Both the position numbers and the translations under genes were made by a program. Shown here piece after piece: positions 1,564 to 26,360 of a DNA stretch of 64,000 bases (the stretch's first letter is position 1; every line of letters begins with the position of its first letter). The notes beneath the pieces are model-generated. The model was not told the DNA's origin. It worked only from the letters and a program-made list of their open reading frames with translations, and made no database searches. Source of the DNA: Williamsia maris (GTDB lineage: Bacteria; Actinomycetota; Actinomycetes; Mycobacteriales; Mycobacteriaceae); assembly GCF_024171815.1 (NCBI RefSeq), contig NZ_JAMTCJ010000002.1, positions 930,001 to 994,000 of the forward strand, read 5' to 3'.

Positions 1564-4500
1564 GTGACCGACATATCTGTTTCCGAACTTCTCGAAGCCT
1601 GGAACGATCGGTCTGCACCTCCGTCGGTGAGCACCGTACCGGCCATGATCGCCCCGCAGTTCGCAGCGGGCGGCGACGCCATCGCGCTCGTCCACCGGGG
1701 TCGTCGGTGGAGCTACGACGAACTCGGTGCCCGCGTCGCGCAGCTCGCGCACAAGCTGCGCGCGGAGGATCCCGACCCCGAGGACATCATCGCCATCGGG
1801 GTCCCGCGCGGGGCGGAGATGGTGGTGGGCGTGCTGGCCGTCATGGCGGCCGGGTGCGCGTTCGTCCCTGTCGACCCGTCGTGGCCCGCGGCCCGAAGAG
1901 CGCAGGTCCTCACCGATTCACGGGCGACACGCGTCCTCGTCGAGCCCGGCCGGGGCGGGGCCGATTCGGGCGAGGGGTGGTCGATCCCGACCGTGGAGGT
2001 GTCGCTGGCGGACTGGGCCTTCGGCGACGAGCCCGCCGAACTGCCCGACATCGAGATCGAGACCAGCCGGCTGGCCTACGTGATCTTCACGTCCGGCTCG
2101 ACCGGGACGCCCAAGGGCGCGATGATCCGTCACGAGGCGATCTGTGAGCGCCTGCGGTGGCAGCGCGACGAGATCCTGCACTTCGGGCCCGATGACGCGT
2201 CGCTGTTCAAGGCGCCGTTGGCGTTCGACATCGCCATCAACGAGATCCTGCTGCCGCTGGTGACCGGAGGCCGGGTCGTGGTCGCCGAGCCGGACGGCGA
2301 GAAGGATCCCGAATACCTCCTCGACCTCATCGAGTCCGAGGGTGTCACCTACGTCTACCTCGTCTCGTCGATGCTCGACGCGCTGCTCCAGCTCGACGCA
2401 CTCTCGGTGGCCGAACGGGGCCGGGACGCGTCGTCGCTGGCGGGCCTGCGCCACGTGTGGTGTGGCGGTGAGGTCCTCACGCCGGATCTGTTCCGTCGCT
2501 TCCGTGATCAGCTCACGACCACGCTCTACCACGGTTACGGTCCCGCCGAGGCGACGATCGGTGTCTCCCATGTGATCTACCGCGACGTCGCCGAGCGCAT
2601 CGCGACCTCGATCGGGTCGCCCAATCCGCACACCCAGCTCTACGTCCTCGACGAGTCCCTCGCTCCGGTGCCGCCGGGCGTCGGTGGCGAGCTCTACGCG
2701 GCCGGGTTCCTGCTCGGTCGCGGATACGTCAACGCACCCGCCCTGACCGGATCGCGGTTCGTGGCCAACCCGTTCGACACCGACGGATCCCGGATGTACC
2801 GCACCGGTGACCTCGCCCGGTGGACGCCCGAGGGATCCCTGGAGTTCCTGGGACGCAGCGACAATCAGGTCAAGATCCGCGGACGCCGCATCGAACTCGA
2901 GGAGATCGAGGCGGCGCTGGCCGATCACCCGTCGGTGCACGCCGCGGTCGTGACCGTGCGCGAGAAGCCGAGCGCCACACTGGTCGCCTACGTCACGACG
3001 GTCGCGGGTGGCGCGGCGTCGGGCACGGGGACCGACGAGCTGTTGGCGTGGGCGGCGCAGACGCTGCCGGAGTACATGGTCCCGTCGGTGATCACCGTGC
3101 TCGTCTCGATGCCGGTGACCGCCAACGGCAAGGTCGACCGGGTCGCGCTGGTGCGCCGCACCGCCGAGAACGCCCCCACGCCTGCCGTTCCGGGGGAGTC
3201 GGCGCCGCCGGTGACCCCTCGTGAGGTCGCGCTCAGTGCGGTCTTCGCCGACGTCCTCGACCTCGATCCCGGGTGGGGTGACATCGACGCCGACTTCTTC
3301 GCCCTCGGCGGCGACAGCATCGTGGCCATCCGGGTCGTCTCCCGGTTGCGGGCGCACGGCTACACCCTGCGACCGCGGGACATGTTCGCCCACCGCACCG
3401 TTCGCGCACTCGCGCCGGTCCTCGGTGACGCCGCGTCGCTCACCCCACGCACCGACGTCGAGGCCACCGGGGCCATCGGCGCCACGCCCATCACCGCCTG
3501 GCTCGACGAGGTCGGGAACGCGGTGGACGGCTTCTACCAGGGCGTCACGCTGGTCACCCCGGACGACCTCACCGAGTCGGCGCTGGCGGCGGTCCTCGAC
3601 GCCGTGGTCGCCCGGCACGAGTTGCTGCGAGCCCACACCGACGGCCCGGCAAAGGATCTCGTCGTCGACAGCGGTGACGCACACGCATCGCTGACGGTGG
3701 TCGACTCCTCCGTGGAGGGTGATCTCGCTGTCGTCATCGACGCCGCGGTGGGTCGTCTCGACCCGACTGTCGGCCGGATGGTCTCGTTCGTCTGGCTCCG
3801 CGACCTGCGCCGACTGCTGGTCATCGCACACCACGTCGTGGTCGACGGCATCTCCCTGCGCATCCTCGCCGAGGACATCGCCGACGCGCATCGACGTCTG
3901 GTGACCGACGGCTCTCCCGTCGTGGACGACGTCCCGGTCTCGTTCCGTGGCTGGGCCCACGCCCTGCGCGAGACCACCGGTGACGGCGCCTTCGACCCTG
4001 ACATCGATTTCTGGACGCAGGTGGCCTCGACGGCCGACGCGCTTCTCGGTGATCGCCCGCTGGACCCGACGGTGGACACCGTCGCCACCGAATCCCGACT
4101 GCGGGTGCAGCTGCCGACCGACGTCACCGAACGACTGCTGACCGTCGTCCCGGACTCCATCCACGGTCGGGTCGACGACCCGATGATCGCGGCGCTGGCC
4201 ATCGCGATCGAGCGGTGGCGCGACGAGCGGGGGATCGCCGGTGCCGGCTCGAACCACGCCGACGCGGTGGTCCTCGAACTCGAGGGGCACGGCCGTGAGG
4301 GCGAACTCGTCGGCGACGCCGACGTGTCGAGGACCGTCGGGTGGTTCACCACGCTCTACCCGGCGAAGCTGACGATCGGTCCGGTCACCGACACCGACCT
4401 GCGCTCGGCCCGCCTCGGTGAGCTGGTCCGGTCGGTGAAGGATCAGCTCCGCGCCGTCCCGTCGCACGGATTGGGCTACGGCGCACTGCGCCACCTCGCC

Positions 4501-4900
4501 GGCCGCGACGATCTCGCCGTCGCACCCCAGGTGCTGTTCAACTACCTGGGCCGCTTCGCGGTCACCGACACCGACACCTCGCAGCCGTGGTCCATGGTCG
4601 CGCCGGAGATGGGGTCCGCCGAGACCACCGTCCTCGAGGGGCGCGGACCGGACATGCCGCTCCCTCGCCTGGTCGAGGTGAACGCCGAGACCGCCGACAC
4701 CGCAGCGGGTCCCGAGCTGTCCGCGGTCTTCAGCTGGCCCCGTGGGGCCGTGGGCGCCGAGGACATCTCACGCCTGGCCGACCTCTGGGTCGAGACGCTG
4801 ACCGCGATCACCGTCAACGACCACATCGCCGGCCACAGCGTCTCGGACTTTCCCCTCGTCGAACTCACCGCCGACGACGTCCGGCAGATCGACTCGTCCA
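1564..4900 (+). other. NRPS module 1: A(fhOrn)-T-E, loading module
   Basis: The protein begins directly with an A domain (about aa 25-530) and no C domain, so this is the loading module. The core [11 protein letters not shown] is at about 2085. The pocket reads D-I-N-Y-W-G-G-I-G, the code reported for formyl-hydroxy-ornithine in coelichelin synthetase. The T domain has FFALGGDS at about 3298-3320. The following domain has E-type motifs: HHVVVDG (about 3832), EGHGRE (about 4285), VGWFTT and FNYLGR (about 4540). The first residue should therefore be D-configured. Confidence 0.85.
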
Positions 4901-7900
4901 CACCGGGACTCACCGCGATCCTGCCTCTGACGTCGGTGCAGCAGGGGATCTGGTTCCACTCCACCTTCTCCGACGCCCACGACCCCTACGTCGTCCAGCA
5001 GATCGTCGAGATCGACGGGGACATCGACAGGGCACGCTTCGAGGCGGCGACCGCCGAGATCATCCGGCGCCACCAGGGTCTCGGCGCCGGGTTCACCACC
5101 GTCGCCGACGGATCACCGGTCGCCGTACACGGCCGCACCGCTGCGCCGGAGGTCCGCTGGATCGACAGCAGCGCCCATTCCGACAGCGTCGAGGACGACA
5201 GCGCCGACGTCGTCGAGTCCGCCGCACGCGCGGATCGCGACCGACGGTTCGACCTGTCCGCCCCGCCGCTCATGCGCTTCACCATGGTGCGGGACACCGC
5301 GGGTGCGGGTTACACGATGATCCAGACGGTGCATCACATCATCGCCGACGGGTGGTCGGTGCCGATCGTCCTGGACGACCTGCGCACCGCGTACCGAGGC
5401 GCCCGGTTCAGAGCGCCCGCAGCGCGTTTCGACACCTATCTGCGGTGGCTGTCGGACCGGGACGCCCCCGCGGATCGCGCCGCGTGGTCGGACTACCTGC
5501 GCGGCGTCCACGGCCCCACCCGCATCGCTGCCGTCGACGGTCCGATCAACCACGGTTCGGCTGCTGCCGAAGGGGACGACCGGTACGGACGTCGTCGTCG
5601 CACCGTCGATGTCGGCGCCCGCACCCGCGTCGGCGAGTTCGCGCGGACACAGTCGGTCACCACGAGCACCGTGGTGACGTCGCTGTGGGGAATCCTGCTG
5701 AGCCGGCTGACCGGCCGGACCGATGTCGTGTTCGGCACCGCGGTCTCCGGCCGCGGCGGGGACCTCCCGGGCATCGACGACATCGTCGGTCTGCTGATCA
5801 ACACCGTCCCCACGCGAGTGCGTCACGGCGGGGGATCGGCGGTCGCCGACACCGTCCGGGCGGTCGCCGCCGCGGATCTCGGTGTGATCGACCATCACCA
5901 CATCCCCCTCTCGGAGATCAACGAGCTGACGGGTTCCGGCGACCCCTTCGACACCCTCGTCGTGATCGAGAACCTCGACCGACCGGCCGCCGACGACGAC
6001 GGATTGCGCTTCGGGGACGTCCGGGTCATCGAGGCACCGCACTACCCCGTGACTGTGATGATCGCGCTGCACGACGACATCGCGATCACCGTCACCAACG
6101 ACCGATCGGTGATCAGCGATGAGTTCGCCGACACCCTGATCGACGAATACACCGCACTCCTCACCGATCTCGACGGATCGCCCGCCCGGACGACCGCCTC
6201 GCCGCGCCCGCCTGCGCTCGAGACGCGGACGGTGGACCGTCTCCTCGCCGACGCCGCGGAGCACCACGCCGCCGCCACCGCTCTGACGATCGGCACCGCG
6301 TCGGTGACCTACGCCGATCTGGCCGCGTCCGCCGCCTCGATCGCGGCCCGCCTGATCGACGTTGGTGCGGGCCGGGGCGACGTCGTCGCTCTGCTCGCGG
6401 AACGCTCGGTCGACACCGTCGCCGGTTTGTGGGCGATCATCGCCACGGGCGCGGCGTACCTGCCGATCGACCCGACCTATCCCACCGCCCGGATCGGCCA
6501 CATGCTCGACGCCGCGGCACCGGTCTGCGTCCTCGCCGACGCCACCGGTCGGTCGATCGTCGAGGCGATGGGCGGTTCGACACCGGTCGTCGAGATCGAT
6601 TCCGACGCCACCGATGTCGGGGGAACTCTGCCCCGCGTTGCCCTGACCGGCGCCGACGCCGTGTCGGTGATCTTCACGTCGGGATCGACGGGCACCCCAC
6701 GGGGAGTCGTCGGGACGCACGGGGCCCTGGCCAACCGCCTCGCGTGGGCGGGCCGGGAATGGACCGCCCAGGTGCGGCTCGCCAAGAGCTCGCTGTCCTT
6801 CATCGACGGCACCACCGAACTGCTCGGCGCCCTGATCGCCGGAGCAACCGTCGTCCTCGCCGACGACCGGGAGAGTCGCGACGGGTCCTCTCTCGCTCGG
6901 CTCATCGACGCCGGCTCGGTCGAGCAGGTGCTCGCGGTCCCCTCACTCGCCCGTGTCCTGGCCGAGGAGTTCGCCGACGAGGTCTCCGGCGTCCGCCGAT
7001 GGATCCTCAGCGGCGAGGCGCTCGGCGCCGACACCGTCGCCGCGCTGCGCACCGCCACACCCACCGCGACGATCGTCAACTCCTATGGCTCGTCCGAGGT
7101 CGCCGGTGACGTCGTCGCCGACCACGCCGTCGATGCCGGCGCGCCCATCTCGCTCGGTCACGCCGTCGCGGGCACCGACGTCGTCGTCCTGAGCCGCGAC
7201 CTCACGCCCCAGCCGAGCGGTGTGATCGGCGAGATCCACGTCGGCGGCGTCCAGCTCGCCCGCGGGTACCTCGACAACCCGACCGCGACCGCGACTCGTT
7301 TCGTCGCCGATCCGCGGTCGGGTGCGGCGGACGGTTCTCGGCTGTACCGGACCGGCGACCTCGGATGGATCGATGCCTCCGGTGCGGTGTTCTACGTCGG
7401 CCGCACCGACGACCAGGTCGCGATCAACGGGTTCCGCATCGAACCGCGCGAGGTCGAGACGGCGATCGTCGCCCTCGACGGTGTCGCCGACGCCGCGGTC
7501 GTCCCACACGAGTCCGCGGGGATCACCGAACTGCTCGCCGCGGTCGTCGCGTCCGATCCAGACCTCACCCCACAGGCCGTCAACACCCGACTCGCCGACG
7601 AGCTGCCGCGCCATCTCGTTCCGTCGTCGGTGGTGTTCGTCGACTCGATCCCGTTGTTGCCCAACGGTAAACGCGACCGGGCGTCGCTGCTGGCCGCACT
7701 CGCCGAGTCGAGGATCGACGGCGCACGCGACACCGACTCGGCCCTCGTGGCCCCCACCACCGACACCGAACGGGATGTCGTCGGGGTCATGACCGAAGTT
7801 CTCGGAACCGACACGCTCTCGGCCGACGCCGACTTCTTCCGCCAGGGTGGCGACAGCATCGCCGCGATCCGGCTCACCGGCCGCCTCACCCGTCTGGGCC

Positions 7901-10900
7901 ATCACATCACCGGCGAGGACGTCTTCCGCGGACGGACGGCCATCGGCATCGCCGCACGGGTGGGCCGGGCGCATACGGTGCCCCGCGAGCCGGTCGAGCG
8001 GTTCGGCACGGTGCGCCTGTCGCGCAGCGTTATCGACGCCGTGATCGCCGAGTCACCGTCGCGGGTCGACGACATCTGGGCGATGACCCCGCTGCAGCAG
8101 GGTGTCTATTTCCAGTGCGCCGACCTCGACGGCGACGACGCGAACGCCGCCACCTACATCGCGCAGAACACGTTCACCCTCGACCACCGCATCGACGTCG
8201 ACGCCATGCGTGTGGCGTTCGTCGCCCTGCTCGACCGCAACCCCCAGCTGCGAGCGGGTTTTCGATCCGTCGTCACCGACACCGACACCGGCGCCGAGTC
8301 CGACACATCACTCGTCGCGGTCATCGCCGGGGATCCGCCGACCGACATCACCGTCCACGACCTCGCACGAGACAACCTCGGCGGGGACACCGAACCGGCC
8401 GCGCGTCTCGCGGCGATCATCGACGCCGATCGCACCGCGCCGTTCGATCTCGTCGCACCACCACTGATCCGACTGAGCATCGTCGAACTGCCGGACGGCA
8501 CCGACCGGATGCTGCTGACCTATCACTTCCTCCTGTTCGACGGCTGGTCGCGAGAACTGGTGCTGCGGGATCTGTTCGCGCTCTACGACGCGGCCCGCGC
8601 GGGCGCAGACGGATCAGACGAGCCGACGCCATCGGCACCGTTCACCGACTACCTGCGGTGGCTGGCCGAGATAGACCCCGCCACCTCGCGCGCGACGTGG
8701 GCGCAGGTCCTGACTGATCTCACCGAGCCGACCCTCGTCGCGGGTACGGCACGGGACAGCGTGGATTCCGCACCGCTGCAGATCTTCTCCGAGATCCCGG
8801 CGGAGCTGACCGCCGCGGTGCGCACCACCGCCGACCGGCTCGGCGTCACCGACAACGCCGTGCTGACCACGGCCCTGGCCGTCGTCACCGGTCACCATGC
8901 GGGCACCTCGGACGTGGTGCTCGGCACGACGGTCGCGGGACGACCCGGGGAACTGGTCGGCATCGAGGAGACCATCGGTCTGTTCCTGAACACCGTCCCG
9001 GCGCGGATCGACCTGACACCCGCGCGGAGCATCGCCGACGTGATCCGCGGTGTCGCCGACCAGCGCGTGGCGACGATGCCGCACGACCACGTGGGTCTGG
9101 GCGAGGTGCAGCGGATCGCCGGCCACGCGCCGCTGTTCGACTCGCTGTTCGTGCTGCAGAACTTCCTCGACGACGACACCTTCGCCGATCTCGAACGTGC
9201 GCAGGGCATCACCGGCGTCGACTACACCGACACCACTCACTTCCCGCTGACCTGGGTGTTGACGCCCGGCGCGTCGATGGGAGTCAAGCTCGAGTACCGG
9301 CCCTCGTCGATCGACACCGACCTCGCGCAGTCCATGCTGACGCGCCTGACGACGGTGTTGTCGCAGATCGTCACCGACACCGACCGTGCCATCGGTGCGC
9401 TCACGTTGGTGACCCCCGCGGAGCAGTCGGCCCTCGAGGCCGATCGGCACGCAGGAGACCACGACTTCGAGCCGCTGACCGTCGCCGAGCTCCTCGCCGA
9501 TCAGTCGGCGCGACGCGGTGACACCGTCGCGCTGGTGTTCGGGCCGGCCGGCGATGAACAACAGCGCGTGACCTATTCCGAGCTCGACGCGCGCATCAAC
9601 CGGATGGCGCGTCTGCTGCTCGCCCACGGTGCCGGTCCGGAACGGATCGTCGCACTCGACCTGCCGCGATCCGTCGACATGGTGGTCGCACTGTTCGCCG
9701 TGCTGCGCAGCGGCGCTGCGTATCTCCCTCTCGAACGCGAGTACCCGACCGAACGGCTCGCCGCGATCGTCGACGACGCCCGACCCACCATCCTGCTCAC
9801 CGATCTCGGCGGGACCGAACTCACCACCGCGGCGGCCGAACGCGGCTGCGACGTCGTCGCTCTCGCCGATCCCGACGTGATCGCCGGCATGGCCGCCGCG
9901 CCGGCCGGTGCTCTGACCGCCGACGAGCTGGGTGCCTTCGCATTCGGCGCCGATCGCCTGCGCCACCCGGCCTACCTGATCTACACCTCGGGATCGACCG
10001 GCAAGCCCAAGGGGGTCGTCACCCCCTACGTCGGTCTGACGAACATGTATCACAATCACGCGACCGCGATCTTCGACCCGACCGTCGCGCGTGCCGACCG
10101 CGGCACGGATGTGCCTCTCGCCGTTGCCCATACGGTGTCGTTCTCCTTCGACATGTCCTGGGAGGAACTGTTCTGGCTCGTCGCCGGCCACGAGGTGCAC
10201 ATCTGCGACGAGGAACTTCGTCGCGACGCGGTCGGTCTGGTCGAGTACTGCCGTGCGCACACCGTCGACGTCATCAACGTCACACCGACCTACGCGCACC
10301 ACCTGATCGACGCCGGGCTGCTCGACACCGATCAGCACAACCCGGCCCTGGTCCTGCTCGGCGGCGAGGCCGTCACCGACACGGTCTGGTCCCGTCTGCT
10401 CGACGCCCCCGGCGTGGACGGCTACAACCTGTACGGTCCCACCGAGTACACGATCAACACCCTCGGTGCCGGTACCGCCGACAGCGTCACACCCACCGTG
10501 GGACAGGCGATCTGGAACACGCGCAGCCACATCCTCGACACCGCCCTGCGCCCGGTCCCCGACGGTGTGGTCGGCGAGTTGTTCATCGCCGGGGTCGGTC
10601 TGGCGCGCGGTTACCACCGCCGCCCGGACCTGACGGCGGCCGCGATGGTCGCCGATCCCTTCACCGCGGGCGGACGCATGTACCGCACCGGTGACCTCGT
10701 GCGTCGCCGACCCGACGGCAACCTCGACTACCTCGGCCGCAGCGACGACCAGATCAAGATCCGTGGCTACCGCGTGGAACTCGGCGAGATCGAGAGCGTG
10801 CTGTCGACGATCGAGGCCGTGGCACGGTGCGCTGTGATCGCCCGATCCGACGCCGCGGTCCCGGGGATGAAGACCCTGGTCGCCTACGTGATCCCGGTCG

Positions 10901-13900
10901 ACGCGGAGCGCGATCCGGCCGAGCTGATCGCCGACGTGCGCGACCGACTGGCCCAGGTCCTGCCCGCCTACATGGTGCCGACGCGTTACGGCGTCGTCGA
11001 CGACCTCCCGCTCACCGTCAACGGCAAACTCGACGTCGCGTCGCTCCCGGAGCCCGTCGCGGCCACCCGCGCCGACGCCCGTGACCCCCGCTCGGCCAGT
11101 GAGCAGATCGTCGCCGAGCTGTGTCAGACCATCCTCGGCATCGACCGCGTCGGCATCGACGACGACTTCTTCGCGCTCGGTGGCGACAGCATCTCGTCGA
11201 TCTCGCTGTCGAGCCGGGCCGCGGCCAAGGGGCTGCGGATCAGCTCCCGCGACGTCTTCCGTCGGCGCACGGTCCTCGCGATCGCCGCCGCCGCGACGAC
11301 CGTGTCGGGAGCGGGTGACACCGAGGACGTCGGTGTGGGCACCATCCCCGCGACCCCAATGCTCGCCGAGACCCGCACGGACGGGACATCGCTCGACGCG
11401 TTCTACCAGTCGATGGTGCTGCGGACCCCGGTCGGCATGACGCACGATCAGCTCACCGCGGTCCTCGACGCGCTGGTCACCCGACACGACCTGCTGCGTG
11501 CCGAGGTGGTCGGGTCAGACGCATGGGAGCTCGTCGTCCCGACCGACGTCACCGTGCGTGACCGCTACCGTCTCGATCTGTCGGACACCGACTTCGGCTC
11601 GGGTCGTCTCGACGGGGCCATCGCCGAACGGGCCGCGGCCCTCGACGCACGTGGCGGGGTCATGCTCACCGCGGCGTGGCACCCGGGTACCGACCCGGGC
11701 ACGAGCGGTCAGCTCCTGCTCGTCATCCACCACCTCGTGGTCGACGGTGTCTCGTGGCGCATCGTGGTCGAGCACCTCGCGCAGGCGTGGGCGCAGGTCC
11801 GCGCGGGCAAAGACCCCCGGATCGAGCCCGTGGGGACGTCCTTTCGCCGCTGGGCGGAGCTGCTGACCACGACGATGGCGGGTGGGGCGCAACGCGCCGA
11901 GATCGACCACTGGACTGCGACCCTCGAGCCGGTCCCACCCATCGGCGACCGTGTACTCGACCCCGCCGTGGACACCGCGGCCACCACCCGCACCATCACC
12001 GTGGACCTGCCCGCCGACGTCACAGCGGTGATCGCGGGACCACTGCCGTCGGCGATCTTCGGCGGCGTGGACGACGTGCTCCTGGCCGGGTTGTCGCTGG
12101 CGAGCCGAGCGTGGCGTGCGGACCGCCATCCCGGCGTCGACCCGACCGCGCGACTCCTGGTGAACCTCGAGGGACACGGTCGACGCCCCGAGGTCCTCGG
12201 CGCGGTCGGTGATCACGTCGGACTGGCCGAGACCCTCGGCTGGTTCACGGCCATCCATCCCGTCGCGGTCGACGCCGGCGACGTCGAGTGGGACGACGTC
12301 CTCGCCGGCGCACCCGTCCTCGACAGCGCGCTCAAGGCGGTCAAGGAACAGGTGCGGTCCACCCCGTCTCAGGGCATCGGTTACGGCATCCTGCGGTACG
12401 TCGACGAGGTCGGAGAGCTCGTCGACCTGCCGACCCCGGAGATCCTCTTCAACTACCTGGGTCGCTTCGACACCGCCGACGGGACGACGGACGTGCCCGA
12501 CTGGGCGTCGGTCCCCGGGATCGGCGAACTGCGCGAGGGCGTCGATCCGACCAACCCCGCCGCGGCACTCGAGATCAACGCCCGGATCGACGCGAACGGC
12601 CGTGGCGTGAACGGGGCCGCGCGTTTCGTCGCCGAGATCACCTGGCCCACCGGCATCCTCGACGACGCCGCGGTGACGGACCTGGCGGACCGCTGGATGG
12701 CGGCGTTGACCGGACTCAGCCGAGCGCAGGTCGGCGGGCACACACCGTCGGACTTCGGCCAGGTGGAGCTGACCGCCGACGACATCGCCGCCCTTGCCCC
12801 GGCCGACCGGCCGGCCGACGACATCCTGCCGCTGCTCCCGCTGCAGAGCGGCATGTACTTCCACTCGTTGCTGCTGGCCGGGGACCGGGCAGCGGGCGCC
12901 GACGTGACCGATCCCTATGTGGTGCAACAGGTCGCGGCCATCACCGGCCGGGTCGACGTCGACCGGTTCGCCGCGGCGATCGATGCCGTCGTCGCCCGCC
13001 ACGCGGCGCTGCGTGCGCGGTTCGCGACCACGTCATCCGGCGCCCTGGTGCAGGTCGTCGAATCCCACTCGAGCATCGAGTCCCACTCGCCCGTGCACGT
13101 CGAGCAGGTCGACCTGCGATCGGACGCCGATCCGGCTGCGAGCGCCGACACCTGGGCGGTGCAGGCGCTGGCCCGACCGTTCGATCTCGACGCCGCGCCA
13201 CCGATCCGTTTCGCGTTGCTGAGCGTGTCCGACACCGAACACCGACTCGTGCAGACGATGCATCACGCGCTCGCCGACGGCTGGTCGTACCCGCTGATGT
13301 TCGCGGACCTGTTGTCCGCGTACCGCTCCGGAGCCGCGTCCCTCCCGCCGGTCGCAGTGGATCTCGCCGACCACGTCGCCGCGGTCCATCGCGGCGACAT
13401 CGACGACGCCCGCGCGGTCTGGACCGAGGCGCTGTCCGGGGTCGACGGCCCGACGTCGATCGCGGAACACCTGCCGCCATCGGCGATGACGACGGTCGCG
13501 GCGACCGGACACCGTGACGTCTCGACCACCCTGTCCGAGGACGCCACGGGAGCACTGATCGCGGCCGCCCGCACCCGAGGGGTCACCGTCGGCGCCGTCG
13601 TCCACGCCGCGTGGGCACTGGTCCTGGGACGCATGACCGGCACCGACTCCGTCGTATTCGGCTCGACCGTGTCGGGTCGCGCGGGCACCGATCCCGACGT
13701 CACCGGTGTCGTCGGACTGCTCATCAACACCAACCCGCTCGCGGTGTCGTGGCAGGGCCACGACTCGCTGGCCGACGTGGTCGCCGGGGTGGCGGCCTTC
13801 CAGCTCGACGTCATGGACGCCCAGCAGGTGGGGCTCACCGAGATCGCCCGCTTCACCGGGCATCCGACACTGTTCGACACGATGGTCGTCGTCGAGAACT

Positions 13901-16900
13901 TCCCCGATGTCCCGGACGTGCCAGGGGCAGACCCTGACGCCCTGCGCGTCACCGGCTTCACCGGCACCGACACCCCGCACTACCCGGTGTCGCTGGTGGC
14001 GTTCCCCGGCGACGAGCTGACGCTGGAGATCAAGTACGACAGCGCCCTGGTCCCCGAGCACTACGCCACCGGTCTCACCCGCGCCGTGGCCACGGTGATC
14101 GACCAGTGGACCGCCGACCCCGAACGTCGGGTCGCCGCAACCGCTCTCGACAGCACGCAGACAGCCGCGACCTCGCAGGGAACGGGTCGCTCCGAGACCA
14201 CCCTCCTCGATCTCGTCGCCGCGTCCCACGCCCGCGATCTCGACGCTGCCGCCGTCACGTTCGACGGCGCCTCGGTGACCCGTCGCGAACTCGACGAGCG
14301 GTCGAATGCACTGGCTCGCATCCTGATCGACGCGGGGGCCGGACCCGAGACGCGCGTCGGTGTCGCACTGCCCCGCGGAATCGACCTCGTCGTCGCCGTC
14401 CTCGCCGCGGTCAAGTCCGGTGCGGCCTACGTCCCCCTTGACACCGATTCGCCATCGGAACGACTGCGGTACATCACCGGCGACGCCGGCCTGGCCGTCC
14501 TCATCACGTCGCAGACCCTCGCCGAACCGGTGCCCGTCTCCGACGTCACGACCACGATCCTGCTCGACGGCGCGAGCGATCGAGCCCGTATCGACAGCGC
14601 AGCAACCGATCCGATGACTGACGCCGACCGCGTCGCCCCGCTGCGGCCCGCGCACCCGGCGTACCTGATCTACACCTCGGGATCGACCGGTGCACCCAAG
14701 GCCGTCGAGATGCCGCACGCGTCGGTCGTCGACCTCTTCGCCGCGGCGAGGGTACGGATGTCGCTCGACGACCAGGTGTGGACCATGTTCCACTCCATCG
14801 CCTTCGACTTCTCGGTGTGGGAACTGTGGGGTGCTCTGTGCCACGGCGGACGTCTGGTGATCGTCGACGGTGAGACCTGCCGCGATCCCGAGCGTTTCGT
14901 CGACCTGCTCACCCGCGAGCGCGTCACGCTCCTCAGTCAGACCCCGTCGGCGTACTACCCCCTGGTCGATCAGCCCGGGTTCGCCGACCTGTCGGTGGAG
15001 ACCGTCGTCTTCGGCGGCGAGGCACTCGATCTCGACCGGGTGCCCGCCCGGGAGAACACCCGTCTGATCAACATGTACGGGATCACCGAGACCTGCGTGC
15101 ACGTGACCGATCACGACCTCGCAGTCGACTCCGGCGCCGGCCGGGCGAGCGTCATCGGCACGCCGCTTCCCGGCCTCGACGTGCACCTCCTCGACCACCA
15201 CCTACAGCCCGTCCCCGCCGGCCTGATCGGTGAGATCTACGTGTCCGGAACCCAACTCGCACGCGGTTACGCAGGTCGGGCGGCGCTGACGTCGACCCGA
15301 TTCGTCGCGCACGAGTCGGGCACCCGCATGTACCGCAGCGGCGACCTCGCCTACCGCGACACCGCAGGTGACCTCGTCTACCTCGGCCGCGCCGACCAGC
15401 AGGTCGCGCTGCGTGGCTACCGCATCGAGCTCGGCGAGGTCGAACACGCGTTGCGGCAGATCGACGGCATCGTCGACGCCGCGGCCGCGGTGGGCGACGA
15501 CCGCACCGGCCGCAGCATGTTGACCGCGGTCGTCGTCGGGCAGGACCCGAACGGGCCGGTCCCGCACATCGACGACCTCAGAGCAGAACTGACGCAGCAT
15601 CTCCCGGGCTACATGATCCCGGCGCGGGTGGCGTCGGTGGCGGCCCTCCCGCTCACCGTCAACGGCAAGATCGATCGGACGGCCGTGGTCGGTGCGGCGT
15701 TGGTCGAGCCGACCGCACCGGCGGAGTCCGCGGTGGCAGCCCCGACCTCGGCTGCGGCCGCACCGACCGACGCCGACGGACTCGCCGCGGTGGTCGCCGA
15801 CCTGCTGGGACTCGACCACGTCGGTCCCGACGACGACTTCTTCAGCCTCGGCGGCGACAGCATCGTCGCCATCTCGCTCGTCAACCGGGCGAAGGCGTTG
15901 GGCGTCACGCTCTCGCCGCGCGACGTCTTCACCCACCGCACGGCACGCGCCCTCGTCGAGGCCGGGGGAGTGGAGCCCGCGACGGTGAGCGTGAGCGTGG
16001 ATCCCGACCGCCACGATCCCGACCGTGACGGCGATGTCCTGCTGACCCCGATCGTGCACCGACTCAACGAACTCGGCGGGACCATCAGCCGACTCAACCA
16101 GGCCGAGGTGCTCTACACCCCGGCCGGCGCGAACGAGTCGCAGATCCGCGCCCTGCTCGACGCACTGGTCCGGCGACATGACGCGCTGCGCCTGCGGTTG
16201 ATCCGCATCAGCCCGCTGTTGTGGTCGACCGAGGTCGACGCACCCACCGCGTCGGCGGCGCCGATCCTGCGCATGGTCGACGGCACCGCCTCCGGTCTCG
16301 ACTCCGCCGACGGCACCGCCCTGACCGCGGCGATCGCCGAGTACTCCGACGAGCTCACGGGTCTGCTCGACCCGGACGCCGGTCAGATGGTCGCGGCGGC
16401 CTGGATCGACGCCGGCCCGGATACGCGTGGCCGGCTGATCCTGGTGATCCATCACCTGGCCGTCGACGGCGTGTCCTGGCGGATCCTGCTCGACGATCTC
16501 GCCGCCGCATGGACCGACGTCGCCCAGGGGCGGACCCCGGAACTGCCTGCCGCGACGACGTCGCTGCGCAGCCACGCCACCGCGCTCACACAGCGTGCCG
16601 CCCATCCGGACCTGCTGGGCGAGTTCGAGTTCTGGCGGGCGCAGATCGAGCCGGGCGCCGACCTCCTGCTCGACGTCTCGGCCGGTCCCGTGCCCGTCGG
16701 GCTGACCGTCGGCCAGACCGTGCAACGCACGATCACCGTCGACACCGCACTCACCGAGCGGCTGCTGACCTCGATCCCGGTGGCCTACGAGGCCGACATC
16801 ACCGAGACGCTCGTGGCGAGCTTGGCGCTGGCCGCCGCACGCGTCCGCGGCGGCGAGGGTGAACTGCTCATCGACCTCGAACGACACGGTCGTGACCTGG

Positions 16901-19900
16901 ACCTCGACGAGATGGACCTGACCCGGACGGTGGGATGGTTCACCACCATCGCCCCGGTCCGACTCCCGGCCGTGACCGCATCCGGTGACGTGGCCGCCTC
17001 GGTGGGCGCGGTTCGCGATGCGATGCGCGGTGTCCCGGACGGCGGTGTCGGTGCCCGGGGCATCGGCTTCGGGCTGTTGCGCTACGCCAACCCGCGGACC
17101 GCGGGTCTGCTCGCCCGCGGTGCGGCACCGCAGGTGCTGTTCAACTATCTGGGTCGGAGTTCCGAGGGGCGCGAACGTGATTGGCTGCCGGCCGCCGAGT
17201 CCTCGGCGCTACGGACTGCGCCGGACCCCGATCTCGGCACCCCGTACCTCCTCGAGATCAACGCCGTCTGTATCGACGGGCCGGACGGACCCGAACTGCG
17301 GATCCACCTCACCCATCCACGGGACGGGATCGCGGGCTTCGACGTCGACCGACTGGGCGACGACTGGCTCGCCGCCCTGGCCGATCTGGACTCCGCGGCC
17401 GCGTCGGCGTCGACCTTCACTCTGCGTTCACTTCCCGAGGACGATCGCACCGCGCTGACCGATCGCCACGGAACCGCCCTGAGCGACGTCTGGCCGCTGT
17501 CGCCGCTGCAGGAGGGCCTGTACTTCCAGGCCACCAGCTCCGACGTCGACGTCTACGTCGCCTGCAATGCCTTCGACCTGGACAACCGCCTCGACGCGGA
17601 CGCGCTGCGCGACGCGATGGGCGAGGTGATGGCGACCCATCGCGCCATGCGATCGGGGTTCGTCACCACGGCGAGCGGGCGACTCGTGACGGTGATCGTC
17701 GACGACCTCGAGGTGCCGCTCACCGAGATCGACCTGACCGACGTCGCCGCGCGCGACCTCGCCGAGCGCCTGGACGAGATAGCCGACGCCGATCGGGCGA
17801 TCCCGTTCGACCTGTCCGCGCCGCCGCTGCTACGGCTCACCCTGGTGCATCTGCCCGAGGGACGAGACCGGTTGATGTTCACCTACCACCTGCTGCTGTG
17901 GGACGGCTGGTCCCGCGAATTGGTGCTCACCGACTTCTTCGCGGCCTACGACCGGCGCGTCGGACGGACCCCATCGGTGATCGACGCACGACCGGAGGAT
18001 GTGCGTGCTGATTTCACCGACTACCTGCGCTGGGTGGACGAGCAGGACACCGACGCCTCGGCGCAGGCGTGGAGGGACCACTTCGCCGGACTCGAGGAGA
18101 CCTCGATCCTGTACCCGGCCGCGGTCGGCACCGACCCGGTGCTGGCCCGGCGGGTCGACGTGGAGTTCTCCGAGGCCGAGACCGAACAGCTCGGAACTGC
18201 GGCCCGCCGGGCAGGGGTGACGACCCACGCACTCATCAGCACCGCATTGGCACTGCTGCTCTCGCGCCGTCTCGGGCGCGCCGACGTCGTGTTCGGGACC
18301 ACCGTCGCCGGTCGTCCCACCGATCTCGACGGCATCGACTGGGTCGTGGGCGTCTTCCTCAACACCGTCCCGGTGCGGGTGACGATGGCGCCGTCCGATC
18401 GGGCCGCCGACGTCATGCGGCGCGTTCAGGACGACCGCATCGCGATGATGGACCACGAGTACCTGGGGCTGGGGGATGTCCAGCGGCAGGCCGCCCAGGG
18501 TCAGGGACGCAGCGATGGCGGCGCCCTGTTCGACAGTCTCTACGTGCTGCAGAACTTCCTCGGCGACGACACGTTCACCGAACTCGAACGGGCGCAGGGG
18601 ATCACCGCGGTCGACGCCGTCGACGCCACCCACTATCCACTCACCTGGGTGGCCATGCCCGGCCGCCGACTCTGGCTGAAACTCGAGTATCGGCCCGACG
18701 TCGTCGACGCCGACGAGGCACACGGTCTGCTCGACGAACTGCGCACGATCCTGCTCGCCGCGTCGCACGACGTCGACCGCGGTGTCGCCGCCCTCACCGG
18801 ACCGATCGACGGGGCAGGCGTCGAGATCGCCGGTCGTACAGTCGACATCGACGATGTGACCATCGCCGAGATGCTCGCCGAACAGGCCCGTCGGACCCCC
18901 GATGCGCCGGCACTCACCCAGGGTGGCGAGCACGTCGACTACCGCCGACTCGTCGAACGGGTCAACCGCACCGCCCGGCTGTTGCTCGACCACGGCGCGG
19001 GTCCGGAACAGATCATCGGCCTCGCGTTGCCGCGGTCGGTGGACATGGTGGTCGGGCTGTTCGCGGTGCTGTCGGTGGGCGCGGCCTATCTGCCGCTCGA
19101 CCTGTCGGCGCCCGACGAGCGCATCGCCGATCTCGTCGACGACGCCGCACCGCTGCTGGTCCTCGTCACCGAGGACACCCGGTCCCGGATCGACGGTGCC
19201 GCAAACGTTGTCATCTCCGACGCCGCCCGACACGCCGGTGACCCGCTCGATGCCGCGGAGCTCGGCGCGTTCGCCTCAGCCTCCTCCGGTCACAGCGGGG
19301 ACCTGCGTCTCGACCACCCGGCCTACGTCATCTACACCTCCGGGTCGACCGGGAAGCCCAAGGGCGTGGTCACCGGGTACCGCGGTCTGACCAACATGCA
19401 GATCAACCACCGGACCGAGATCTTCGCACCGGTGATCGCCGCGGCCGGTGGCGCCACACTCACCATCGCCCACACGGTCTCGTTCGCGTTCGACATGAGT
19501 TGGGAAGAACTCCTCTGGCTCGTCGAGGGCCACCACGTGCACATCTGCGACGAGGACCTGCGTCGCGACTCGGCCGCACTGGTCGCCTACTGCCGTGACC
19601 ACAGCGTCGACGTCATCAACGTGACCCCCACCTACGCCACGCAACTCCTCGAGCAGGGACTGCTCGCGCAGTCGTCTGACGGCGGTGCGGGCTGCCCGAA
19701 ACTCGTACTCCTCGGTGGCGAGGCGGTGTCGGATCAGCTGTGGACGGCGCTGCGCGACACCCCGGATCTGTTGGGCTACAACCTCTACGGACCCACCGAG
19801 TACACCATCAACACCCTCGGCGTCGGGACCGACGACTCGGATCGGTCGGCAGTGGGCACGCCGATCACCAACACCACCTGCTCCATCCTGGACGGATGGA

Positions 19901-22900
19901 TGCGGCCGGTCCCGGACGGCGTCAGCGGCGAGTTGTACATCCGCGGAGCCGGTCTCGCCCGCTGCTACCTGAACCGACCGGGACTGACCGCGGCCGCGTT
20001 CGTCGCCGACATCGCGGGCACCGGCGAGCGGATGTACCGCACCGGCGACCTCGTCCGCCGACGCCCGGACGGTCTCATCGACTACCTGGGTCGCACGGAT
20101 GACCAGGTGAAGATCCGCGGCCATCGCGTCGAACCCGGCGAGGTGACCGCGGTGATGCTGACGCTGCCCGGCGTGACCGGTGGATCGGTGATCGCCGCAG
20201 CCGACGACTCGGGGACGAAGCGATTGGTCGCCTACGTGATCCTCGACGATGGACGCCGGGACGGTGCGCACCAGGAAGAGGACTTCCTCGGCTCCGTGCG
20301 TACCGGGCTGGCGTCGAGCCTCCCCGGGTACCTCGTGCCGACCGCGTACGCGATCGTCGACGCGCTGCCGTTGACCATCAACGGCAAGCTCGACGTCGCG
20401 GCACTCCCGGAGCCGAAGGTAATCTCCACCCGCTCGCGCCCGGCCGCCGACGACACCGAGCGCGCGCTGTGCGAGCTGTTCGCGGTGGCGGTCGACGTCC
20501 CGGACGTGGGCGTGCAGGACGACTTCTTCGCCCTCGGCGGTCATTCGCTGCTGGCCACCCGTCTGCTCGGCATGATCAACGACCGCTTCGGTTCGTCGCT
20601 GCGGGTGCGCGACCTGTTCGACGCCCCGTCGCCCGAGGCGGTGGCCCGCCGGATCGCCGCGGCCGACTCGGAGGGTGCGGGTGCCGGGCAGCCGCTCGTG
20701 CCGCGCTCGGGCGTCGGACCGGCACCGCTCGCGCCACCGCAGCAACAGCTGTTCGTGATGTCGCGGATCGACCCGACGTCGACCTCGTACCTCTACCCCC
20801 TCGCGGTCCGGGTGCACGGGCACCTCGACGCCGACGCCCTGCGCGCCGCGCTGCTCGCGGTCATCGCTCGGCACGAACCGCTGCGCACCCGATTCGTCGA
20901 ACGTGACGGACACGTCGTCGCCGAGGTGCTCGACGCGTCCGCCGTCGACGCGGAGCTCGTGTCCCGGATCGAGCGGGTCGACGAGTCGGCGCTCGACACC
21001 GTCGTCGCGTCGGAGCTCAGCCGCCCCATCGACCCCGCGGCCGACCTGCCGATCCGATCGACACTGATCGAGGTCGGGAACGACTCGGTGCTGCTGCTGT
21101 GCCTGCACCACCTGGCGGCCGACGAGTGGTCCGACGCGGTCCTGCTCGGCGATCTCGACCGCGCCTACCGCGCGGCGGCCGCCGGCTCGGACCCGGCTGC
21201 GGCCCTGGACGCGGTCGAGGTCACCTACGGCGACTACGCGCAGTGGGCCCGCGACCGGCTGGGTGACCCGGCCGAGGACTCGAGTGCGTACTCCACGCAG
21301 ATCGGATACTGGCGAACACAACTCGCCGATCTCCCGCCGGAGGTCACCGTCAGCCCCGACCTCGTGTCCACCCGACCCGGCCGAGCCGACGAGGTGTCCG
21401 CACACGTCGACACCGCCGTCGCCGAGCGACTCCGGTCGGTGGCCGGGGACGCGGGAGCGACCGTGTTCATGGCGGTGCACGCCGCGCTCGCGGTCACGCT
21501 GCGCAGGTTCGGTGTCGGCGACGACGTCGTCATCGGCAGCCCGCAGTCCGGACGCACCGAGGCCGCCCTCGCCGACCTCGTCGGGTTCTTCGCCAACACC
21601 GTCGTCCTCCGGACGGACCTGACCGGCCGGCCCACGTTCGACGAGCTGTTGACCCGTGTGCGCACAGTCGATCTCGCCGCCCTCGACCATGCCGACGTGC
21701 CGTTCGCGGACGTGGTCGGTGCGCTCAACCCGGTCCGGTCCCCGGGCCGCAACCCGTTGTTCGCGGTGATGCTCGGGTACTTCCGCAGGCAGTCCGGCGG
21801 AGACGCGGCTGCGATGTTCGGTCTAGGCACGGCCGACGTCGACGTCACCCCCGCCGAGGCCAAGGTCGACCTCAACCTGACCTGCATCGACCACGGTCCC
21901 GGCGCCCCGATCGAGCTGGTGCTCGAGTACGACTCGTCGCGCTACCTCGAGGCGACTATGCGCGATCTGACCGACTGCCTGGCACGGGTGATCGACACCG
22001 CCGCAACCACTCCGCACACCGGTGTCGCCGACCTCGGCGTGGTGGCGACCACGGGTGCGCCGGACGAATCCGTCTCGACGCCCACCCGTTGGTACGCCGA
22101 ACTCGACGATTACGCAGCCCGCAGCCCGCGCACACCGGCGGTCGTCGCCGGGGGAGAGGACGTGTCCTACCGGGCGCTCACCGAGCGCAGCCAGGTCATC
22201 GCGGCCCGACTGGCGCACGCAGGAGTCGGGGCCGAGTCGGTCGTCGCGCTCGCCATCGACCGCACCGCGGACCTCGTGGCCGCGATGGCCGCCGTGCACC
22301 GACTGCACGCGGCATACCTGCCGCTCGACCTGACGTTGCCCACCGATCGGCTGGCCTACATCGTCGACGACGCCGCACCGGTGCTCGTACTGACCGACGG
22401 GCACGCCGACCTGAGTTGGTCATCGGTCCCGGTGCGAGCGGTCGACGACACCGGGTGGGCATCCGACGGTGACGACTCGTCCGCGGTGCCCGGCTCACCA
22501 CCGACGCCCGACCTGGCCGCGTATCTGATCTACACCTCGGGGTCGACGGGAAAGCCGAAGGGCGTCACCATCACCCACCGGGCACTGGACACCTTCCGGT
22601 CCGGGCTGGACCGGGCCCTCCCGATCGATGCGGACGACGTCGTCCTCGCCGTCACCACGGTGTCGTTCGACATCGCGGTGCTCGAGCTGATTGTCCCGCT
22701 GACCACCGGTGCCACCGTCGTGCTGGCGGGAGCGTCGGAGGCCGCCGATCCGCGTCGCCTCGGCGAGTTGATCGCGGCGAACGTCGTGACCGTTGCACAG
22801 GCCACCCCGTCGCTGTGGGCGATGGTGACCCGACACCGCGACGTCGACGGCCGATCGATCGACCTCTCCGGGATCCGCGTCGCCGTCGGCGGTGAGGCGT

Positions 22901-24645
22901 TGCCGTCGGACCTGGCAGGCGAATTGGTGCAGCGGGCCGCGCAGGTGACCAACATGTACGGGCCCACCGAGGTCACGGTCTGGGCCACCTCGGCGCAGAT
23001 CGACGCGGACTCGGCCGCCCGACCGCCGATCGGCTCGCCGTGGGACACCGTGGACGGGTACGTGCTCGACGCCGACCTGCACCCCGTGCCCGCGGGCGTC
23101 GTCGGCGAGCTCTACCTCGGCGGGGCGCAGGTCGCCCGCGGCTACCACGACCGCTTCGGTCTGACCTCGGAACGCTTTGTGGCCGATCCCTTCTCCGCCG
23201 ACGGCACCCGGATGTACCGCACCGGTGACGTGGTCCGCGTGCGACGTGACGGCACCCTCGAGTACCGGGGCCGATCGGATCACCAGGTCAAGATCCGCGG
23301 TCACCGGATCGAGCCCGACGAGGTCGCCGCGGCGTTGCGGCGGATCGACGGCGTGACCGACGCCGTCGTCGTCGCCGATGACCACGCCACGGTCGGATTG
23401 CGCCTCATCGGTCATGTCGTCGGCACCGACCTCGACGGGAGCGCGCTGCGCACCCGGTTGGGGTCGTCGCTCCCCGGGCACATGGTGCCCGCGCGCATCG
23501 AGATCCTCGACGCGTTGCCGCTGACGCCCAACGGCAAGGTCGACCGGAATGCGTTGCCGGCGCCGACCGACGCCGGATCTGACGGCGCGGCATCCGACGG
23601 TGCCGCGGCAGCCGACCTGACGGCCACCGAACGGGCGGTCGCCGACCTGTTCGGCGACATCCTCGACGTCCAGGCCACTGACGCGCACGCCGACTTCTTC
23701 GCACTCGGCGGGCATTCGCTGCTGCTGGTGCGGCTCGCCGAATCGCTGGCCGAGCGGTTCGATCTGCGCATCGAGGTCCGAGAACTGTTCGGCCTCAGCA
23801 CCGTCGGGGCGCTGGCCGCCCGGATCGACGATCCCGCGACCCGGTCCACCGGTGACGCCCTCGACCCGGTCGTCCGGTGGGGAGCCGACACAGGGTTCGC
23901 CACCACAGGGCCCACCGAGGCGACACCGGTGATCTGCCTGCCCCCGGCGAGCGGGATGTGTTGGGAATTCGCGGGACTGGCGCGGGCCCTCGGACCCCGC
24001 GTCCCGGTCATCGGACTGCAGTCGCGGTCGCTGACCGATCCGTCGGTGCTCGGTCGCCCGTTCGACGACGTGGTGATCGATTACTGCGACCGCATCGACG
24101 AGCTCGGTGTCGGCCCACGAATCGCCCTGGTGGGCTGGTCGTTCGGCGGCATCGTCGCCGTCGCGATCGTCGGTGAGCTCCGCCGCCGCGGCTACACCGT
24201 CGAGCCACTCATCGTGCTCGACGCGTACCGACCCGACGGCGCGCCTCCGGCCGATCGTCACCTCGTGACGCTGCTGCAGGAACTCGGGATCGACGTGCCC
24301 GCGGACGAGTCGGTCACGATGGACACCGCGGTTCGGCTGGTGGCCGACGACGACGACTTCCTCGCCGCACTCGGCGACGATGCCGTTCGGTCGGTGATCG
24401 ACACCTATCTCGACAGCGACCGGATCATCGCCGAAGCGGCACAGGCCGACTCGGGATCCACTCTCGACGCCGAGCCCGTGATGTTCCTGCAGTCGACGGT
24501 GCTCGAGGCCGGATTCGACGGCAACTCCGCCGCCGGGTGGCGGACGGCGCTGCCCGTGCTCGAGGTCGTCGACGTCGACGTCCCGCACTCGCAGATGCTC
24601 ACCGGACCCGCCGTCGAGATCATCGTCGGCCTGCTCAGACGCTGA
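1564..24645 (+). CDS. Six-module NRPS, predicted exochelin-like hydroxamate siderophore synthetase
   Basis: One uninterrupted frame encodes 7693 aa with the order A-T-E / C-A-T / C-A-T-E / C-A-T-E / C-A-T / C-A-T-TE. Aligning the A domains by eye to GrsA gives these pocket codes: module 1 DINYWGGIG (formyl/hydroxy-ornithine), module 2 IDTLISSGD (beta-alanine type, Asp235 absent), modules 3 and 5 DMENLGLIN (hydroxy-ornithine), module 4 DFWSVGMVH (threonine), module 6 DILQAGMVW (glycine-like). All six A domains keep the A10 NGK lysine. Predicted product: D-fhOrn, beta-Ala, D-hOrn, D-allo-Thr, L-hOrn, then possibly Gly. The first five residues equal exochelin MS. In mycobacteria the corresponding synthetase is split in two proteins (FxbB and FxbC, from memory). 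I chose GTG 1564 over ATG 1516 because the iron box and its -10 place transcription start at 1564, and 1516 lies inside the ABC gene. Confidence 0.93.
4901..8040 (+). other. NRPS module 2: C-A(beta-Ala)-T
   Basis: The C domain has an intact HHIIADG at 5332. The A domain has [11 protein letters not shown] at about 6673. In place of the usual FD at pocket 235 it has FID, giving I-D-T-L-I-S-S-G-D. Loss of Asp235 is expected when the substrate amine sits on a beta carbon, and the pattern fits the published beta-alanine consensus VDxVISxxDK. The T domain has FFRQGGDS at about 7837-7860. There is no E domain, as expected for achiral beta-alanine. Confidence 0.82.
8041..12810 (+). other. NRPS module 3: C(variant)-A(hOrn)-T-E
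   Basis: The C domain motif at 8524-8544 reads HFLLFDG, so the second His of HHxxxDG is Phe. The A domain ([11 protein letters not shown] at about 9982) has the pocket D-M-E-N-L-G-L-I-N, identical to the hydroxy-ornithine code of coelichelin module 3. The T domain has FFALGGDS (about 11170). The E domain has HHLVVDG, EGHGRR and FNYLGRF. C-A-T is closely similar to module 5. Confidence 0.85.
12811..17460 (+). other. NRPS module 4: C-A(Thr)-T-E
   Basis: The C domain has an intact HHALADG at 13261. The A domain ([10 protein letters not shown] at about 14672) has the pocket D-F-W-S-V-G-M-V-H, one change from the threonine code DFWNVGMVHK. The T domain has FFSLGGDS (about 15840). The E domain has HHLAVDG, but its second motif reads ERHGRD instead of EGHGRE; other E motifs (VGWFTT, FNYLGRS) are present. 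Epimerising L-Thr at C-alpha gives D-allo-Thr. Confidence 0.85.
17461..20690 (+). other. NRPS module 5: C(variant)-A(hOrn)-T
   Basis: The C domain motif at 17887-17907 reads HLLLWDG, so the second His of HHxxxDG is Leu. The A domain pocket is again D-M-E-N-L-G-L-I-N (hydroxy-ornithine). The T domain has FFALGGHS (about 20527), the form seen on carriers not followed by E. No E domain follows, so the residue stays L. Confidence 0.85.
20691..24645 (+). other. NRPS module 6: C-A(Gly-like)-T-TE, release module
   Basis: The C domain keeps both His residues (HHLAADE at 21106; the last Gly of the motif is Glu). The A domain pocket D-I-L-Q-A-G-M-V-W is closest to glycine codes of the DILQLGxxWK type. 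The T domain has FFALGGHS (about 23695). The C-terminal thioesterase has the nucleophile in GWSFGG (about 24133), Asp in VLDAY and His in VPHSQM. Exochelin MS has no glycine, so this module is either productive here, giving a longer product, or used only for release. Confidence 0.75.
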
Positions 24646-25952: not shown

Positions 25953-26360
25953 ATGCGGCGAACAATGTTGGGTGGCAAGGTGCACCGGGCCACGGTGACC
26001 CAGGCCGACCTGCACTATGTCGGGTCGATCACGATCGACCACGACCTCATGCTGGCCGCCGACATTCTCGACGGCGAGCAGGTCCAGGTCGTCGACATCA
26101 CCAACGGTGCGCGGTTGTCCACCTACGTGATCGCCGGCGCGGCCGGGTCGGGAGTCATCGGGATCAACGGTGCCGCAGCACATCTCGTCGGTCCGGGTGA
26201 TCTGGTGATCATCATGTCGTTCCGTGAGGTCGAGGAATCCGAACTCGCCGGCCACGAGCCGCGGGTGGTGCACGTCGACTCCGACAACCGGATCGTCGCC
26301 CTGGGCAAGGATCCGTCGCAGCCGGTTCCCGGCGCGGTCGATCAGTGGGCGAGCGCCTGA
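25953..26360 (+). CDS. panD: Aspartate 1-decarboxylase, predicted siderophore-dedicated beta-alanine supplier
   Basis: PanD converts L-aspartate to beta-alanine and CO2. It is made as a proenzyme that cleaves itself at a Gly-Ser bond, and the Ser becomes the catalytic pyruvoyl group. The 135-aa protein has the normal family length, the start [16 protein letters not shown] and the cleavage site YVG-S at Gly24-Ser25. Its usual partner is panC in coenzyme A synthesis. Here it lies behind an iron box and its stop (TGA) shares one base with the ATG of the N-hydroxylase, so the two are translationally coupled. Together with the beta-alanine-specific A domain in NRPS module 2, this points to a siderophore-dedicated copy. 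Enzyme identity is very firm; the dedicated role is inferred. Confidence 0.95.

Follow-up and report, generated by a model that had tools for sequence, protein, structure and literature searches.

A 64,000-nucleotide stretch of the Williamsia maris genome (contig NZ_JAMTCJ010000002.1, positions 930,001 to 994,000; hereafter the window) carries an open reading frame for a nonribosomal peptide synthetase (NRPS) of six modules and 7,709 amino acids (1516-24645; this and all the following features of the window lie on the forward strand). Profile matches, domain motifs and substrate codes place its modules in the exochelin order, which reads A(formyl-hydroxyOrn)-T-E / C2-A(beta-Ala)-T / C3-A(hydroxyOrn)-T-E / C4-A(Thr)-T-E / C5-A(hydroxyOrn)-T / C6-A-T-TE, where A, T, E, C and TE are the adenylation, thiolation, epimerization, condensation and thioesterase domains, C domains are numbered by module and hydroxyOrn is hydroxyornithine. 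Motif, alignment and tree identify C3 (8068-9390) and C5 (17479-18825) as variant condensation domains without the second His of the HHxxxDG motif; C3 was also examined as an AlphaFold model.

The motif is HFLLFDG in C3 (8524-8544) and HLLLWDG in C5 (17887-17907). Raw sequence, translation and an alignment of the eight C and E domains of this NRPS agree in placing F2338 (8527-8529) and L5459 (17890-17892) in the same column, that of the second His; the Asp and the Gly of the motif are present, and the two domains depart from the canonical sequence at the second, catalytic His. Conversely, C2, C4 and C6 keep both His residues (HHIIADG at 5332-5352, HHALADG at 13261-13281 and HHLAADE at 21106-21126, respectively). 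Each variant domain is directly followed by an A domain with the hydroxyOrn code DMENLGLIN, A3 (9478-11025) and A5 (18826-20385). The first-pass annotation had read all these motifs in the same way and had named modules 3 and 5 as the loaders of hydroxyOrn; both statements are upheld.

The loss of the second His is real and extends well beyond the window. Relatives were gathered by whole-genome profile searches in the family and in the class and by scanning the contigs of named genomes, and their flanks were fetched and annotated; a hydroxyOrn acceptor was defined as a distinct C domain lying directly before an A domain with the code DMENLGLIN. Alignment of the C domains upstream of hydroxyOrn modules from exochelin, coelichelin and other synthetases, as had been suggested earlier, revealed that 164 of 166 are devoid of the second His; the first two letters of the motif are HF in 65 of these, HL in 50, QV in 19, QF in 15 and EF in 12, with three singletons, and HH in the remaining two of the 166. 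The second His is present in all the 252 distinct C domains of the same set that precede any other A domain, including 33 that accept a second type of hydroxyOrn (code DVxILGAVN) and two that accept formyl-hydroxyOrn, and in 68 of 68 further C-A pairs from background NRPS stretches in other genomes of the class; it is therefore absent from none of 320 C domains with another acceptor.

Among exochelin-type synthetases, the second His is missing from modules 3 and 5 in all the 44 where both modules are readable, with HH in the C domain of module 2 (35/35) and of module 4 (45/45). The module 3 C domain of trimodular synthetases of the coelichelin type (L073, L074, L156, L161) and the hydroxyOrn C domain of erythrochelin-like lines (starter C, hydroxyOrn-type, X, hydroxyOrn, hydroxyOrn', terminal C) are also without it. 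In hydroxyOrn C domains of the Nocardia/Rhodococcus type, in Streptosporangiaceae-like ones and in those of Nocardioides both His residues are gone, the motif starting with NRQF, NREF, NRQV or NRRF (loci L009-L011, L014-L043, L045-L049, L095-L102 and L151). The named hosts of this clade belong to the Mycobacteriaceae, Nocardiaceae, Streptosporangiaceae, Micromonosporaceae, Pseudonocardiaceae, Streptomycetaceae and Nocardioidaceae. A DNA search of 198 genomes for the pattern H[FLIMV]xxxDGWS gave 42 matches, 14 of them in C domains, all of the hydroxyOrn clade; of the other 28, the 25 that were read are not in C domains and three were left unread. The contig of one C-domain match stops short of the A domain. 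As separate observations, two Rhodococcus loci (L093, L142) join a coelichelin-like line to two extra modules, of the Thr-like and formyl-hydroxyOrn types and with an E domain, and a C domain at residue 1200 in L079, preceding an A domain for a substrate other than hydroxyOrn, reads PHVIADG, with the first His lost and the second kept.

Some erythrochelin-like domains contain the strings SHHLVAWDG or THHLILWDG, which at first sight resemble a retained HH; a pair truly kept at these sites would contradict the idea of His loss. This was ruled out, because counting from the Asp shows the His pair to be shifted by one, with Leu or Val at the second position. The terminal C domain of the same NRPSs reads HYLAVDEWS, the second His being replaced by Tyr in 14 cases, while one case shows TY (L068, L072, L095, L097, L145, L149, L153, L155, L157, L159, L160, L163, L182 and others); it is presumably the diketopiperazine-releasing domain and shows another, distinct loss of this His. 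C domains that seem to accept hydroxyOrn by an alpha linkage keep HH. In the erythrochelin-like lines this applies to the next domain, the hydroxyOrn' acceptor, whose linkage is probably of the alpha type and which has HH in 33 of 33 cases. The Streptomyces locus L179 appears to resemble the line for kasichelin, a product with a hydroxyOrn lactam (PMC12305651), and its hydroxyOrn acceptor, probably alpha-linked, likewise retains HH.

In a maximum-likelihood tree computed for 142 C domains after removal of the motif columns, all the hydroxyOrn-accepting domains fall in one clade, with a Shimodaira-Hasegawa-like approximate likelihood ratio test (SH-aLRT) value of 99. Its basal member is the HH domain of a fuscachelin-type cluster, and the other 81 rows, all His-less, form one clade (SH-aLRT 98); the second His was therefore lost in a single old event that was never reversed. 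In the same tree C3 and C5 group with DCL domains, and a sequence search of the PDB ranks first a C domain of PvdL that follows an E domain.

The two exceptions among the 166 are Thermobifida fuscachelin domains. At locus L178, in Thermobifida fusca, a C-A-T-TE protein has the motif TFHHIVMDG and the hydroxyOrn code DMENLGLIN; a neighbouring synthetase aligns along the full 528 residues of the crystallised fuscachelin PCP2-C3 didomain (7KVW), which identifies the locus as the fuscachelin cluster. Differently from C3 and C5, this termination module has HH and no carboxylate in core motif C6. Fuscachelin A contains a 10-membered Ser-hydroxyOrn depsipeptide ring, a size that would fit acylation of the side-chain nitrogen, since an alpha linkage would give a seven-membered one. 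If the module does form a hydroxamate, its C domain can do so with HH in place, and the His would be permitted to go but not obliged to. Thus, the expectation that the loss tracks hydroxamate-forming C domains holds for exochelin, coelichelin and erythrochelin-like synthetases, with no counter-example among the 320 domains for other acceptors, but it fails as a two-way rule, the fuscachelin hydroxyOrn module having HH. Likewise, the variant motif can serve as the proposed marker in one direction, in that a His-less domain in this motif context belongs to the hydroxyOrn clade; the loss would mark the subfamily and would not be required for hydroxamate formation. A single loss, and the probable existence of an HH-keeping hydroxamate former in fuscachelin, would also be expected if drift had removed the His in one ancestor whose module loaded hydroxyOrn by coincidence, the chemistry playing no causal part. 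Such a coincidence is improbable, because the His was never regained across many actinobacterial families, its place is always taken by a hydrophobic residue, none of the 320 domains with other acceptors has lost it, and an ordinary C domain hardly survives its change to Gln (PMC8097023).

When the columns of the clade are compared with those of other C domains, the second-His position has a Jensen-Shannon divergence of 1.00, the highest of all; this and the count of 164 of 166 against 0 of 320 show that the pattern is not due to chance. Next in discriminating power come the FLNT that replaces FINT in core motif C5, the Gln that takes the place of Glu in the VLQN strand, and a Trp preceding the Asp. 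In domain C3 the first corresponds to L2491 (8986-8988; FINT is found in most other C domains of this type) and the second to Q2548 (9157-9159; Glu in most other domains), while in domain C5 the Gln of VLQN is Q5679 (18550-18552). Q2548 aligns with the pocket residue Q2921 of the fuscachelin C3 domain, which has been listed among the residues possibly contacting the acceptor side chain (PMC8097023).

Core motif C6 changes as well: column comparison assigns a carboxylate to D2524 of C3 (9085-9087) and to E5648 of C5 (18457-18459), and the same position is acidic in 164 of 164 His-less domains (Glu in 121, Asp in 43). The two fuscachelin-type domains have His there, and in 273 other HH domains it is usually Gln, Ala or His, with Glu in 11 and Asp in none. 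This coupling leaves room for a relocated base, in which the C6 Glu or Asp would have replaced the second His as the base or would bind the N-OH group; the idea is possible but rather doubtful, as the coupling amounts to one event on one branch and the carboxylate may mark substrate recognition only. A wider version, to be held with similar reserve, would see in these domains a separate catalytic class for hydroxamate bonds, where the His base has been swapped for the C6 carboxylate and the acceptor pocket rebuilt for the side-chain hydroxylamine, making the linkage predictable from the C sequence alone.

The variant domains have the features of intact condensation domains. The PF00668 match spans the whole of C3 and of C5; the AlphaFold model of C3 has a mean predicted local distance difference test score (pLDDT) of 89.7 and the C-domain fold, and its best matches in the PDB are C domains with Z about 40 (40.7 for the C domain of SrfA-C). 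Only Phe, Leu, Val and Met occur at position 2 of the motif in the His-less clade, which does not look like a pattern of decay, and the Asp, Gly, Trp and Ser are invariant. The ratio of nonsynonymous to synonymous substitution rates (dN/dS) is 0.18-0.23 for C3 and C5 and 0.14-0.24 for the HH C domains of the same protein, indicating purifying selection; together with the conservation of the motif, this would argue against an inactive domain or one of the X type. The X domain of glycopeptide synthetases shares with C3 and C5 the C fold and an altered active-site motif, but it is a noncatalytic recruiter of P450, whereas the modules considered here have no C domain besides the variant one. X domains are indeed structural neighbours of the C3 model, and the catalytic His is lost, with both His residues missing in one subclade, so that an idle scaffold might be imagined, the hydroxamate arising spontaneously or through another enzyme; this is nonetheless unlikely, since the line has no spare acyltransferase and selection on the variant domains equals that on active C domains.

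The remaining domains of the NRPS complete an exochelin-like line. Substrate codes define A1 (1651-3195) as a formyl-hydroxyOrn type (DIxYWGGIG), A2 (6241-7695) as beta-Ala-like (IDELISSGD) and A4 (14191-15675) as Thr-like; position 239 of the codes for other substrates is read one residue off, the hydroxyOrn A domains having a one-residue deletion there, and the assignments are unaffected. Domain annotation and alignment locate E1 (3463-4845), E3 (11338-12750) and E4 (16018-17400), whereas motif and alignment define the canonical C2 (4903-6195) and C4 (12808-14145), which precede the beta-Ala-like and Thr-like A domains, and C6 (20707-22035). The sixth module, whose A code is DIEQAGMVW and whose C motif is HHLAADE, follows the five exochelin-like modules and extends with the thioesterase over 20707-24645; the core of the latter is a PF00975 match (23926-24294). 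An annotated ATP-binding cassette exporter (2-1549), cut by the edge of the window, lies directly upstream of the NRPS, and downstream a PF13434 match reveals an L-lysine/L-ornithine N-monooxygenase (26345-27670), the putative source of N-hydroxyOrn; a formyltransferase gene lies 2.3 kb beyond the window. The features of the exochelin MS type were thus found together, namely the order formyl-hydroxyOrn-E, beta-Ala, hydroxyOrn-E, Thr-E, hydroxyOrn, with an N-hydroxylase and a formyltransferase nearby. In another region of the same genome (805000-905000, L164-L168) very large NRPS genes occur, with open frames of about 11,300 and 13,800 amino acids and HH in every C domain with a readable motif.

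Taken as a whole, the data favour, with a probability of roughly three in four, a DCL-like subfamily of C domains that forms hydroxamates and in which a neutral hydroxylamine nucleophile has made the second His dispensable. C3 and C5 would accept N5-hydroxyornithine through its side-chain hydroxylamine, yielding a hydroxamate and not an alpha-peptide bond. Since a hydroxylamine is an alpha-effect nucleophile and stays mostly unprotonated around neutral pH, the second His, usually credited with deprotonating or orienting an amine, might have become superfluous, and it is plausible that this acceptor needs no base. In the ancestor of the subfamily the His would have been replaced once by a hydrophobic residue (Phe, Leu, Val or Met), with the Asp-Gly, the fold and the selection retained, while the acceptor site was remodelled alongside, from Gln or His to Glu or Asp in core motif C6, from Glu to Gln in VLQN and from FINT to FLNT. 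The analysis shows directly the missing His, its absence throughout the His-less clade, the pairing with hydroxyOrn A domains, the accompanying substitutions, the fold and the purifying selection; that C3 and C5 catalyse the bond, that this strain's product is linked through the side-chain nitrogen, and why the His could go, are inferences. The hydroxylase gene of the cluster and the nearby formyltransferase gene count in favour of this scheme. The C3 domain of fuscachelin synthesis joins its donor to Gly by an alpha-amide, and changing its His to Gln leaves about 1% of the activity, so the His does matter where the nucleophile is an amine (PMC8097023).

An ordinary bond to the alpha-amine, with the His loss reflecting some other property such as donor stereochemistry, may be envisaged; it is very improbable, because C3, with a beta-Ala donor and no E domain before it, and C5, with a D-Thr donor, share the loss despite their different donors, which indicates that the loss follows the acceptor. 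Exochelin MS and coelichelin, whose known structures have the acyl group on the side chain, also speak against it.

Several points weigh against the hydroxamate-forming subfamily. The loss occurred once, so that its link to the chemistry rests on conservation and not on repeated origin, and the fuscachelin termination module, a hydroxyOrn acceptor which to judge from its presumed 10-membered ring probably forms a hydroxamate, keeps HH. Furthermore, the second His is also lost, as HY, in terminal C domains, which probably act on an ordinary amine as nucleophile. The connectivities of exochelin, coelichelin, erythrochelin and fuscachelin that support the chemistry come from published knowledge, and no assay of any enzyme of the His-less subfamily was found in the literature searched.

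The nearest relatives of C3 and C5 in the tree are the DCL-type HHxxxDG domains, which have the same PF00668 match, fold, place in the module and Asp-Gly-Trp-Ser, but differ from the clade, where Phe, Leu, Val or Met stands for the second His and core motifs C5, C6 and C7 are changed together. The exochelin MS synthetases FxbB and FxbC of Mycobacterium smegmatis are alike in module order, substrate codes, E positions, and a formyltransferase and exporter nearby, while the system of the window is one fused six-module protein. The coelichelin synthetase CchH likewise lacks the second His in the module 3 C domain preceding hydroxyOrn (L073, L074), in the same clade, and differs by its three modules, its Thr donor and the absence of a thioesterase domain. 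Activity without the second His has a precedent in the C domain of streptothricin ORF18 (HQxxxDM; reviewed in PMC11546977); its acceptor is the amine of an aminoglycoside, with Gln in place of His, and it is not a hydroxamate former.

The literature searched contained no description of a C subfamily that forms hydroxamates, nor of such domains losing the His. The role of the second His of HHxxxDG, as a base, a positioning group or a dispensable residue, is disputed (PMC11546977, PMC8097023); here the His has been removed naturally in one clade with a different nucleophile and kept by sister domains of the same protein, which provides matched pairs for testing its role. The clade also departs from the published conclusion that C domains have no acceptor code (PMC8097023). 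As a marker, the variant motif would let genome mining for siderophores tell side-chain from alpha-amine linkage of hydroxyornithine, which the A-domain codes alone do not.

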